This document shows positions 50,826-60,105 of a stretch of DNA of 64,000 nucleotides, piece after piece. The notes below the pieces were generated by a model. It had not been told where the DNA came from and did no database searches. It saw only the letters and a list, made by a program, of their open reading frames with translations. How positions within the stretch are numbered: position 1 is the first letter of the stretch; each line of letters begins with the position of its first letter. Source of the DNA: Clostridia bacterium (GTDB taxonomy: Bacteria; Bacillota; Clostridia; Christensenellales; Christensenellaceae); the NCBI GenBank assembly GCA_017439085.1, contig JAFRTU010000005.1, positions 1 through 64,000 on the forward strand, written 5' to 3'. Made by a program: the position numbers and the translations under genes.

Positions 50826-51461
50826 TCAGGCTTCATAGAATGCCTTTGCCACTGCAACGGGATCCTCTGCTTCCTTGATGGCTCTTCCCACTATTATGTG
50901 ATACGGATTAACCTTCTTGATAGCTTCGATGTTTTCTGTCTTGATAGCTCCCGAAAGGACCAGCTTTGCATTGAAGTTGCACTCGGAGATCTCTTTGAAC
51001 ATCTCTTCAAGCCTCTCCGTGGTCTTTGCCTGTCCGTCTCTTGAGTCATCGCCTGAAAGGTGTGCACACACATAGTCAGGTCCGAGTCTGTTGATCATAT
51101 CCACGACTTCTTTGTAGTCCGGAACTGCAACGAGATCTACGAAGCATTCCTTTCCTGTTTCCCTGCATGCCCTTATGGTCTCTGCGATGGTCTTTTCCTT
51201 AGCTCTTGCGCATACGGTTATGATGTCAGCTCCTGCTTCGAGGCAGGGAAGACCCACCTTATATCCGGAGTCCATGATCTTGATATCAGCCAGTATCTTC
51301 TTCTCAGGGAACTCGTTCTTGAACTCTCTGATAGCCATGTGGCCGTATCTTGCGATGAATTCCTCTCCGAGCTCGATTATCTCGATGTAATCCCTTATCT
51401 GCTCCGCGAGATGGAGCCCCTGTGCCAGTGTGATGCAGTCTACTGCAAACTGTACTCTCAT
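50826..51461 (-). CDS. hxlA: 3-hexulose-6-phosphate synthase
   Basis: 211 residues, orotidine decarboxylase superfamily. Family residues are FAVDCI near the start, IIELGEEFI, and the D-x-K-x-x-D motif as LADIKIMDSGYK (about 58-69); VLSGAIKTENI and YHIIVGRAI bind phosphate near the end. Length and motif match HPS, which condenses formaldehyde with ribulose-5-phosphate or, run backwards, makes ribulose-5-phosphate in organisms without a full pentose pathway. Ketogulonate-phosphate decarboxylase is the main alternative. A hexuloisomerase-like gene at the right window edge supports HPS. Strong AGGGAGGA site. Confidence 0.8.
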   Translation of the reverse strand: MRVQFAVDCITLAQGLHLAEQIRDYIEIIELGEEFIARYGHMAIREFKNEFPEKKILADIKIMDSGYKVGLPCLEAGADIITVCARAKEKTIAETIRACRETGKECFVDLVAVPDYKEVVDMINRLGPDYVCAHLSGDDSRDGQAKTTERLEEMFKEISECNFNAKLVLSGAIKTENIEAIKKVNPYHIIVGRAIKEAEDPVAVAKAFYEA

Positions 51462-51617: not shown

Positions 51618-51646
51618 TTGGAAAAAAGGTTTGGAACAAGTATAAT
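51618..51646 (+). promoter_or_regulatory. consensus promoter of the leader RNA and TerD-like gene
   Basis: TTGGAA (51618-51623), exactly 17-bp spacer, perfect TATAAT (51641-51646). The predicted start, about 51653, coincides with the first base of the repeated RNA module. Confidence 0.75.
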
Positions 51647-51652
51647 GGTTAT

Positions 51653-51832
51653 GGCCGTGTATTGGAGGGGCATACTTCTGTTTTTTTGGAGATTCTGCAC
51701 CTCATCCTACGGCTAAAGTACTCCTGCCGTGTAATAGGGAAGCTTACTTCTGTTCTTGTCAACGTCAGTTTCCCATCTACGGCAGGGGTATCACCTGTTT
51801 TCTTTTGGCAGGATCTCGTCTGCAAAAAGAAA
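51653..51832 (+). ncRNA. unrecognised structured RNA of tandem modules, 5' leader
   Basis: About 180 nt between the promoter at 51618 and the start at 51856. Two modules each begin GCCGTGTA (51654 and 51726), carry a TACTTCTGTT block and end CTACGGC (51707-51713 and 51777-51783). A third partial copy, GGGGTATCACCTGTTTT (from 51785), follows. CTGCCGT/ACGGCAG encloses GGGAAGC/GTTTCCC in module 2. A long-range 10-bp helix joins GAGATTCTGC (51689-51698) with GCAGGATCTC (51808-51817). GCCGT occurs twice and ACGGC twice, so alternative folds exist. I do not recognise it as a known riboswitch or RNA family. No terminator follows, so a cis-acting leader is more likely than a separate RNA. Confidence 0.6.
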
Positions 51833-51855
51833 ATTAGCATGAAAAGGAAAGACAG

Positions 51856-54153
51856 ATGATAGATGTAAACGAAGTGCCGGGAAATGACATCATGTTCAGG
51901 GTCGAGAAGGCTGCTCTTCTGAACTTCCAGGGGATGTATATACCTAAGGCAAGGACCGCAAAGCCCGTAAAGTATACAGACAGTGAACTCGTTACGATAA
52001 TAAAAAAACTGGAAGGTTTCGGTTTTACTCCGTCGAGATCCCTTGCAGAGGAACTGAAGGAAGGGGACAGGACAGTCACTTTTCCGTACCTCATGGCATT
52101 CTTCTCGGTACTTGAGAGATTCCACAAGGGAAAGGACTACATGGTCTTCTATAAGGGCTTCCCGGAAGAAGTCATGAGGATGAGTGAAGACGAACTGTAT
52201 TTCAACGCCATTCTTCACTATCTCTTCGGATATGCTCCTGAAAGCGATACCATGGTGGAAAAGGTGAGCCGCCAGAGACTGTATAAGACCTACAGAACCA
52301 ATCTGACAGAGCTCGATATAGTCGAGTATTCCGGACTCTGCAGGAAAGTGAAGACGCTTCTGAATTCCAACGTTACTCTGTCAGAGTCGGATCTTCAGTC
52401 CCTTGAGGACCTGCTGTTTGTCCTGAATGAGGATGATATAAGGAACATTCTGGACAGTTCAGAGATAAAGATGAAGGAAACTCTGATCCATATAGCTCCT
52501 GCTCTCATAAAAAGGAACATCACGGTGAAGTTCTCCACTGTCACTGACGTCCTGAGGCTCATTGCCCATCTTTCAGGAGAAAGACTGGATTCCAGGCATA
52601 TACAGTTCAGAAAGTTCAGCAGGACTGAGCTCAGGTATCTGTACACACTGATAGAAGAGACTGCCGAGAGATACGGGACTATAGGGGATGACGAAGCCGT
52701 ATACGCTTATCCCGTACTCGACGATATTCTGAGATATGAGAAACCATGGAAGAGGTTCTTCACTCTGACATCACAGAAAGTCAACTGGAACAGCTTCGAG
52801 AGGACTAAAAGGCTTAAGACTTTTCTGTTCAACTCCTCTTCGACGGGATATGTCACATTCACGGGAAAACTCAACGATCTCTTTCTGAAGGCAAGGAACA
52901 CCTCGGGAGAGGATAAGATCGCCGCGATAAAGGGATACATCTCTCTTTGTTCGAAGGCAGTCACGGGACAGGGATATTTCATAAGGAATCTGGTTTCACT
53001 GATCAACAGCCTCAACAGTCAGGATGAGGAGGCTTTCTCTCTTCTCATGGATATGCTGAAAAAGATATGCAGGGTAGGCGCCGTGAACAGAAGGGTGCTG
53101 ATACAGCTCTATGTCAGGTTAAGGAACATAGGCCTCAAGGATGATCCGTTCGATATACCAAGAGTGGTGAATGCAAAGGGGACCTATGTCGAGATCAGGG
53201 AGACCTATGCCACGGGAGACGCTGCAAGACAGTTGTATGCCTCAAGAGCAGCTGACACGCTCCTTAACGGGCTGAAGCTCTCATATATGGTGAGCTCCGA
53301 CAAGGACCCTTTAAAGAAATACCTTTCCATGTTCAGATCGGATGGCATAACAGACAATGCAGAAATGCTGGACAAGCTGGACAGTCTTATCCTCTCCACA
53401 TCAGAAAGGGACAGCAATGTCAATATTTCAAAGGATGCCATGGGGAACATATCCGTACTCACCAGAGGCTCATATATGGAACTGGATATGAAAAAGAACG
53501 ATGTCATCAGACTCTTCATAGCATGGAAGAACCTTGGAGAGGAAAGGATAGACATAGACCTCTCCGCAGTCGTCTTCGACAGTGATTTCAGAAAGGTGGG
53601 AAGCGTGTACTACGGGGACCTCAAGGGATATGAAAGTATAGTCCATTCAGGAGATATAGTAGACGCACCTGAGGGAGCCACGGAATATATCGACATCAGA
53701 GATCCGGACAGGATGAAGCAGCTCGGACACAGATATGTGCTCGTCACAGTCAATTCCTTCACTCAACAGACGTTCAAGGAGCTCTCAAAGCTGGAACACT
53801 GCAATTTCGGATTCATGAAGATCCCTCTGGAACAGTCCAATGAACAGCTGTATTTTCAGGATTCAGTGATCAACGGATTCTCCCTCAATACAGATACGAA
53901 TAATGTGAGCACACTTCTTTTCGATCTTTTTGAGGGAAGGATGTACATCATTGATGCCTCCCTTAGGTCTGTCTCTTTACTGAGAAACAATATCGAGAAT
54001 CTCTCTTCCATGGGAGAGGTGCTGAGGTTTATGATTAAAGGGTACCATATGACATGGAAGGATGCCCTGATGCTGCACATGACGGAGGAGGAGGTCTCAC
54101 ATACGGATCTCTCCCTGGCCAGCCTCTCGCAGATGCAGGGGCTCCTCATATAA
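51856..54153 (+). CDS. large protein with TerD-like C-terminal domain (MXAN_6230/SCO0854-like)
   Basis: 765 residues, no signal peptide. The N-terminal and middle parts are helical and include FYKGFPEEVMRMSEDELYF and NAILHYLFGY (about 100-130). The C-terminal part (about 540-660) has strands and motifs like TerD: LFIAWKNLGEERIDIDLSA, DSDFRKVGSVYYGDL, VHSGDIVDAPEGATEYIDI, then YVLVTVNSFT. From memory this combination matches the MXAN_6230/SCO0854 family, normally with a RING-type N-terminus, which I do not see here. TerD domains bind calcium and belong to stress and tellurite-resistance systems. Function unknown. AAAGGAAAG site; leader RNA upstream; signal peptidase gene follows. Confidence 0.65.
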   Translation: MIDVNEVPGNDIMFRVEKAALLNFQGMYIPKARTAKPVKYTDSELVTIIKKLEGFGFTPSRSLAEELKEGDRTVTFPYLMAFFSVLERFHKGKDYMVFYKGFPEEVMRMSEDELYFNAILHYLFGYAPESDTMVEKVSRQRLYKTYRTNLTELDIVEYSGLCRKVKTLLNSNVTLSESDLQSLEDLLFVLNEDDIRNILDSSEIKMKETLIHIAPALIKRNITVKFSTVTDVLRLIAHLSGERLDSRHIQFRKFSRTELRYLYTLIEETAERYGTIGDDEAVYAYPVLDDILRYEKPWKRFFTLTSQKVNWNSFERTKRLKTFLFNSSSTGYVTFTGKLNDLFLKARNTSGEDKIAAIKGYISLCSKAVTGQGYFIRNLVSLINSLNSQDEEAFSLLMDMLKKICRVGAVNRRVLIQLYVRLRNIGLKDDPFDIPRVVNAKGTYVEIRETYATGDAARQLYASRAADTLLNGLKLSYMVSSDKDPLKKYLSMFRSDGITDNAEMLDKLDSLILSTSERDSNVNISKDAMGNISVLTRGSYMELDMKKNDVIRLFIAWKNLGEERIDIDLSAVVFDSDFRKVGSVYYGDLKGYESIVHSGDIVDAPEGATEYIDIRDPDRMKQLGHRYVLVTVNSFTQQTFKELSKLEHCNFGFMKIPLEQSNEQLYFQDSVINGFSLNTDTNNVSTLLFDLFEGRMYIIDASLRSVSLLRNNIENLSSMGEVLRFMIKGYHMTWKDALMLHMTEEEVSHTDLSLASLSQMQGLLI

Positions 54154-54171
54154 GAACGGATGGAGAATGAT

Positions 54172-54630
54172 ATGGAAATAGATATCTTTCAGAAGGATAA
54201 GGACAGGATGTGGGACAGGCTCACAATACTTTATATCGTAGTACTGATCCTCATAAAGATATTCATGCTGGACATAATGTACGTGGACGGAGAATCCATG
54301 CTTCCGACGTATAAGGAAGGACAGATAGTGGGATTGAATAAGACTGCCTACTGGCTTACAGAACCAAAGGTCGGAGACGTCGTGATCGCAAGGTCTTTAA
54401 GCTCAAACAAGATCGTCATAAAGAGACTTGCGGGAGTGCCCGGAACCACCATAACTCTTCGAACCGGGCAGGAATACACCCTTAAGGAGAACGAGTATTT
54501 TCTGAGAGGGGACAACAGGGCCATCTCTCTTGACAGCGATACCTACGGTCCCATTACGAGGGACAGGATACTTGGCATCGTGATCCCCCAGAGGGAGAAC
54601 ATGAACAAACTGTATATCGATATGCCGTAG
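54172..54630 (+). CDS. small type I signal peptidase-like protein
   Basis: 152 residues from the ATG at 54172, which has TGGAGA 6 nt before it; the ATG at 54160 would add MEND and has a poorer site. One membrane helix (about 15-35) is followed by the S26 catalytic domain: YVDGESMLPTY (Ser nucleophile), VVIARSL, VIKRLAGVPG (Lys general base) and YFLRGDNR with SLDSDTYGPI (box E). It cleaves signal peptides outside the membrane. It lies 18 bp after the TerD-like gene, so a dedicated role with that protein is possible, but it could equally be a general peptidase. Confidence 0.85.
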   Translation: MEIDIFQKDKDRMWDRLTILYIVVLILIKIFMLDIMYVDGESMLPTYKEGQIVGLNKTAYWLTEPKVGDVVIARSLSSNKIVIKRLAGVPGTTITLRTGQEYTLKENEYFLRGDNRAISLDSDTYGPITRDRILGIVIPQRENMNKLYIDMP

Positions 54631-57923: not shown

Positions 57924-57930
57924 CTATGTG

Positions 57931-58031
57931 TAGCTTTCGTGACTGACGGATAATCATGGAGCACCATGGAGGAGCGAAAGCATTTATGTCGACCGTCTGG
58001 GCACTTCTTAACGGAGTGCCCTTATTTTTTT
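57931..58031 (+). promoter_or_regulatory. ZTP riboswitch with terminator platform
   Basis: Conserved ZTP (pfl) elements appear in order: TTCGTGACTGACGG (57935-57948), a CATGG hairpin with GGAGGAGCG (about 57965-57976), and CCGTCTGGGCA (57993-58003), with ACGG pairing with CCGT. The 3' GGGCACT (57999-58005) is also the 5' arm of a terminator with AGTGCCC (58015-58021) and a T run. When ZTP/AICAR ribotides bind, the conserved GGGCA is held in the aptamer and the terminator is prevented, turning on the purine genes. The signal fits formyl-folate shortage. Confidence 0.92.
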
Positions 58032-59985: not shown

Positions 59986-60105
59986 ATGGAGATACCTTTC
60001 ATCCTGAAGTGGGGAATACCGCTGCTGCTGATAGCCTGCGTGGCGGGCACCGTTGCAGTACTGATATATGCCGTGAGATTTCACATGGCAAATAAAAAGG
60101 AATGA
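59986..60105 (+). CDS. 39-residue single-span membrane protein, unknown
   Basis: A small ORF starting 1 bp after the AICAR transformylase stop. It encodes MEIPFILKWGIPLLLIACV and a helix continuing to VLIYAVRF, then a short basic tail. No good ribosome site of its own, so expression would depend on coupling to the upstream gene. No family is recognised. Its length equals that of the small membrane ORF at 19760 but the sequences do not match. Confidence 0.45.
   Translation: MEIPFILKWGIPLLLIACVAGTVAVLIYAVRFHMANKKE

Follow-up and report, generated by a model that had tools for sequence, protein, structure and literature searches.

Introduction

Homologous aptamers arranged in tandem are known in the glycine, guanidine-II and NAD+-I riboswitches (PMC9481103). 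A comparable arrangement, in which a 5' leader contains two similar RNA domains, one behind the other, near the gene start, was found ahead of a gene for a TerD-like protein in the 64-kb stretch of clostridial DNA analysed here (called the window in the following, at its full length); the leader differs from these riboswitches in that an Rfam match, a known ligand-linked gene and homologues are lacking. With the guanidine-II (mini-ykkC) riboswitch it shares two consecutive hairpins. The hairpins of guanidine-II riboswitches carry ACGR apical loops, whereas the apical loops of the present leader carry UACUUCUGUU, and its ACGG strings are located in the strands of the outer helices (P1, see below). 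Assignment to guanidine-II was rejected, due to the absence of ACGR apical loops from both sequence and fold and the lack of an Rfam match. Another cis-regulatory leader of the same genome, a ZMP-ZTP riboswitch (56.9 bits), is present in the window at positions 57929–58009 of the plus strand, ahead of a gene apparently related to IMP cyclohydrolase; the leader studied here differs from it in having no match to the ZMP-ZTP model. The mechanically assigned ORF start following this riboswitch, 57966, lies inside the aptamer, and therefore the true start of the gene must lie further downstream.

In our estimation there is about an even chance that the element, which is built on a tandemly duplicated RNA domain, is a structured, cis-acting 5' untranslated leader of an operon for the TerD-like protein and a signal peptidase-like protein. 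The evidence, together with several other explanations, is presented below; coordinates are compiled in Table 1.

Table 1. Features of the leader and of the genes downstream, with positions in the window.
Feature	Position	Strand	Evidence or remarks
Sigma-70-like promoter, TTGGAA-17-TATAAT	51618–51646	+	10/12 consensus match; predicted
Module 1	51654–51713	+	repeat, fold, pair-by-pair comparison with module 2
Module 1, P1	51654–51658/51709–51713		internal loop between P1 and P2
Module 1, P2	51665–51672/51696–51703		
Module 1, apical loop	51673–51695		
Invariant apical-loop block TACTTCTGTT, copy 1	51673–51682	+	alignment of the two modules
5' arm of 10-bp long-range helix	51689–51698	+	partner 51808–51817; sequence, shuffle comparison
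Module 2, plan as in module 1	51726–51783	+	fold of the module by itself (z -6.6), helix list
Module 2, P1	51718–51731/51778–51791		lengthened outward to 14 bp
Module 2, P2	51737–51744/51767–51774		
Invariant apical-loop block TACTTCTGTT, copy 2	51745–51754	+	alignment of the two modules
Weak terminator-like hairpin and U-rich tail	51781–51806	+	pattern scan
Hairpin 3, U-rich 5' arm and A-rich 3' arm, just 5' of ribosome site	51797–51834	+	predicted fold
3' arm of 10-bp long-range helix	51808–51817	+	partner 51689–51698; sequence, shuffle comparison
Shine-Dalgarno AGGAAA and ATG start codon	51845–51858	+	sequence
TerD-like protein, 765 aa, remote relative of MXAN_6230/SCO0854 group	51856–54153	+	NF041916, Deinococcus TerD family proteins
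Signal peptidase I-like protein	54160–54630	+	PF10502, TIGR02227; 6-nt gap after TerD-like gene

Results and Discussion

Promoter and layout of the leader

The leader is located between a divergently oriented gene of the OMP-decarboxylase family (50826–51461, minus strand) and the 765-codon gene which starts at 51856. Transcription of the operon would proceed from the predicted promoter, and the leader would regulate it in cis. A preliminary description of the region had called this promoter near-perfect, which is correct for the -10 hexamer (51641–51646, a perfect match) and overstated with respect to the -35 hexamer (51618–51623, 4 of 6 positions) and to the whole; the spacer comprises 17 nt. 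Transcription had also been expected to start on the first base of the repeat. The predicted start, 7 nt after the -10 hexamer, is position 51653, one base ahead of module 1, and this would give a leader of 203 nt (51653–51855). Its location, with a promoter on one side and a ribosome site on the other, supports the interpretation as a leader. A 6-codon frame on the plus strand (ATG AAA AGG AAA GAC AGA TGA, 51839–51859) covers the Shine-Dalgarno sequence and overlaps the start codon of the TerD-like gene; it is probably due to chance.

The tandem modules

Downstream of the promoter, a unit of about 60 nt is present in two copies at a spacing of 72 nt. The direct repeats 51654–51685 and 51726–51757 are 78% identical at this spacing; identity in the best 32-nt repeat is 25/32, compared with a maximum of 20 in 300 dinucleotide-preserving shuffles. 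The two full modules reported previously do align, with the common blocks GCCGTGTA, TACTTCTGTT and CTACGGC. A third, partial copy had been proposed as well (51793–51808); its similarity is weak (75% over 16 pyrimidine-rich nt) and may be explained by low complexity, and it was not counted as a copy. Both modules have the same predicted plan: the outer helix GCCGU/ACGGC (P1) is followed by an asymmetric internal loop, an inner helix of eight pairs (P2) and a large apical loop, which starts with the invariant UACUUCUGUU.

Fold stability and preservation of helices

For the 208-nt RNA 51653–51860 a folding energy of -70.5 kcal/mol was calculated (z -3.9), and none of the shuffled sequences was as stable. 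The predicted fold of the leader consists of two two-helix hairpins and a third hairpin ahead of the ribosome site; the region of the latter (51793–51835) reaches -14.1 kcal/mol and a z-score of -3.5. The plus strand is favoured by its G-U pairs, with a folding energy of -70.5 versus -57.3 kcal/mol for the minus strand, and z-scores for 51653–51855 were -4.2 and -3.4, respectively (300 shuffles). A z-score by itself proves little, since other stretches of the window reach similar or lower values (160 stretches, with few shuffles each), among them a region at 60001 with an ordinary hairpin. In that part of the window, a frame of 39 codons, which would encode a small hydrophobic protein of membrane-like character (59986–60105, plus strand), is situated between two metabolic genes, and a strong GATCCCGTCTC/GAGACGGGATC hairpin follows it.

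The comparison of the two copies, pair by pair, is more specific. P1 is identical in both. In P2, three pairs differ on both sides and are nevertheless paired (A-U/G-C, G-C/A-U and A-U/U-A, copy versus copy), one G-C corresponds to a G-U, one G.A mismatch to an A-U, and three pairs are unchanged. When random bases were placed at the differing columns, all eight P2 pairs of module 2 were standard in 1% of trials (p about 0.01), a value which has to be read with the caveat that the structure was picked from these same two copies. The changes suggest that the helix P2, and not its sequence, was kept after duplication, for which the evidence is modest yet real. Since compensatory changes in P2 occur while P1 and the UACUUCUGUU loop block are constant, RNA rather than protein would appear to be the product. 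Thus, the fold, the repeat, the compensatory changes and the G-U pairs favouring the plus strand bear out the previous notion of a structured, repeated, RNA-like element.

The protein-coding reading deserves consideration in its own right. A frame of 198 nt (51662–51859) could encode a small protein in which a 24-residue repeat occurs twice, and its translation would be coupled by an ATGA overlap to that of the TerD-like gene: the frame is open across both modules (65 codons), the distance of 72 between the repeats is divisible by 3, and the stop of the frame overlaps the ATG at 51856. However, its codon score is -0.21, versus +0.42 for true genes of the window (sd 0.11, minimum 0.04) and an average of -0.48 for wrong frames. 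The differences between the copies are not concentrated at third positions, but are spread over all codon positions; the TTG start is without a clear ribosome site, and a family search of the frame gave no match. The reading was rejected on the codon score, and we regard it as very improbable.

Search for relatives

In Rfam 15, no family reached its gathering score in the leader region, and raising the E-value limit to 10 produced only noise, e.g., BtsR1 with 19.7 bits versus a gathering score of 66; in the same window, tmRNA, a tRNA and, as a positive control, the ZTP riboswitch were recognised. The earlier statement that the element was not recognised as any known riboswitch is in agreement with this result. 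A covariance model (R1) was built from the two module copies. It recovers both of them, with 84.6 and 77.6 bits, and yielded no other match in the same genome or 40 relatives, or in samples comprising 396 genomes from the order and 291 from the class. Among 398 genomes of the phylum (the samples of order, class and phylum overlap) there was one match, in genome G296, with 22.3 bits and a per-genome E-value of 0.22; it lies inside an apparent aspartate-oxidase-like coding sequence and was taken as chance.

Loop-based pattern searching of 84,980 genomes resulted in 20 matches, which had R1 scores of at most 16.6 bits, none of them with the helices, and were discarded. Three pattern scans of viral contigs gave chance matches only (best 15.2 bits, E-value 4.4, with scores for the first 80 loci out of a longer listing), blastn against phages and plasmids detected no DNA match, and in other genomes the loci with remote TerD-like genes did not contain the module. 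As no homologue was found, there is no phylogenetic covariation, and conservation of an aptamer across species was likewise not observed; compensation is seen only between the two copies of this leader. A strongly diverged relative could be missed, since the large searches used stricter filters and the model was derived from two sequences.

Alternative pairings

The 10-bp long-range helix, with one G-U pair, is present exactly as previously proposed. Of the shuffled sequences, 1.4% contained a helix of this kind (10 bp or more, no more than one G-U pair, span of 100 nt or more). The long-range helix of the leader competes with the inner part of P2 in module 1 and with hairpin 3. Forcing its formation gave -72.8 kcal/mol, versus -73.3 kcal/mol for the best fold; in the forced fold module 1 opens, and 51670–51687 pairs with 51846–51866, which masks the Shine-Dalgarno sequence and the start codon. 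The open and the masked folds are isoenergetic, both at -72.8 kcal/mol. When loop 1 was shuffled, the masked fold was equally or more stable in 62% of trials, and therefore support for the switching step does not exceed chance; in shuffles of the whole leader, too, masking was usually at least as favourable as the open state. After these controls, masking of the Shine-Dalgarno sequence is not supported as a selected feature.

The arms GCCGT and ACGGC had been suggested to pair either within or between modules. Pairing within the modules is predicted; inter-module P1 pairing is possible, but about 15 kcal/mol costlier (-58.0 versus -73.3 kcal/mol), and was rejected. Mutually exclusive pairings as a designed switch are not supported, since the inter-module form is far weaker and the masked fold no better than after shuffling of loop 1. 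From the proposal of a new regulatory RNA there remains an element which is structured, RNA-like, non-coding and without an Rfam match, whereas the switch is not supported beyond chance.

These results have to be weighed for a leader of purely structural function, i.e., a stable 5' end that shields the mRNA, or a doubled binding site for an RNA-binding protein, with no switch involved. The great stability of module 2, its closeness to the 5' end, and alternative folds which are not better than chance would all fit such a function; on the other hand, the loop block was kept while the inner helix changed, which a pure role in stability would not need, and we consider this explanation rather unlikely.

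A rival of a different kind is transcription attenuation, in which the hairpin 51781–51799 followed by UUUUCUUUU would act as an intrinsic terminator, with P1 of module 2 as the antiterminator. The 5' arm of the terminator-like hairpin (51781–51806) is common with the 3' strand of this P1, and such sharing of strands resembles classical attenuators; moreover, the site was found by a pattern scan. However, the stability of the terminator is low (-7.1 kcal/mol), its formation at the U tract costs 13.4 kcal/mol relative to the antiterminated fold, and a single site of this type fits chance (0.5 expected). Attenuation therefore appears improbable.

Downstream operon and genomic context

The presence of a TerD-like gene downstream, as predicted in the preliminary description, is borne out at the level of remote matches. 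Against NCBIfam NF041916 (MXAN_6230/SCO0854 family) the protein had an E-value of 4e-39 and 134 bits versus a cut-off of 600, which means that it is not a full member; one of the TerD family proteins of Deinococcus plasmids is 31% identical to it over residues 538–703, and a Pfam search gave no match. The label "TerD-like" is fair in view of the NF041916 match and about 30% identity to Deinococcus TerD family proteins. The gene for the signal peptidase I-like protein is probably the second gene of the operon. Remote TerD-like homologues are present in large-genome members of the phylum, on a Niallia megaplasmid and in the phages Weasels2, RpAliso and LpeD.

The TerD-like gene was found in one of seven genomes of the genus, namely this one alone; for the signal peptidase, the other genomes had no more than remote matches. 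In G004, the closest sister (decarboxylase 95% identical), the neighbouring position holds a different gene, which we read as that of an IclR-type regulator, and the TerD-like operon is absent from this locus in the sister species. Apparently, leader and operon were either acquired together or disappeared from the sisters, and the rarity of the leader may match that of the operon. The OMP-decarboxylase/HUMPS-family gene is single at this locus here, and several paralogues occur side by side in the sister genomes G001, G002, G003, G005 and G006.

Possible mechanism

Predicted fold and position would together present a structured 5' leader directly upstream of the gene to be controlled, as is expected for a riboswitch. 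A tandem-aptamer riboswitch of a new class, in which one metabolite or ion would be bound by the two modules, with cooperative or additive effect on operon translation or transcription, would account for a duplication with a constant loop block and a variable inner helix, for an architecture which is documented among riboswitches (PMC9481103), and for a leader without an Rfam match. But riboswitch classes normally recur, whereas this module was not found a second time in the genomes and collections searched, and the gene context points to no ligand; such a class is, in our view, unlikely.

With regard to a cis-acting leader with duplicated domains, the following scheme could be envisaged. The two conserved loops would recognise a protein or small-molecule ligand, and the access of ribosomes to the start site would be set in this way. 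Folding of module 1 would leave the ribosome site open; if module 1 were unfolded, its loop would pair with 51808–51817 and with the Shine-Dalgarno sequence and start codon (51846–51866), and the site would be closed. This particular step, from opening of module 1 to masking, is the likeliest mechanism we can offer, although it is a tentative one and, taken by itself, less likely than not. The complete picture, of a new and extremely rare tandem-aptamer riboswitch or protein-sensing leader, in which opening of module 1 masks the ribosome site of a TerD-like stress operon, must be considered unlikely at present.

Conclusions

The duplicated module provides the sole "comparative" evidence, in that each copy serves as the homologue of the other. 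If the element is real and regulatory, it would represent a structured RNA class which is invisible to comparative pipelines, due to its single known occurrence. If true, it would also offer a handle on the control of a TerD-type gene; little is known about the physiological signal of this group.
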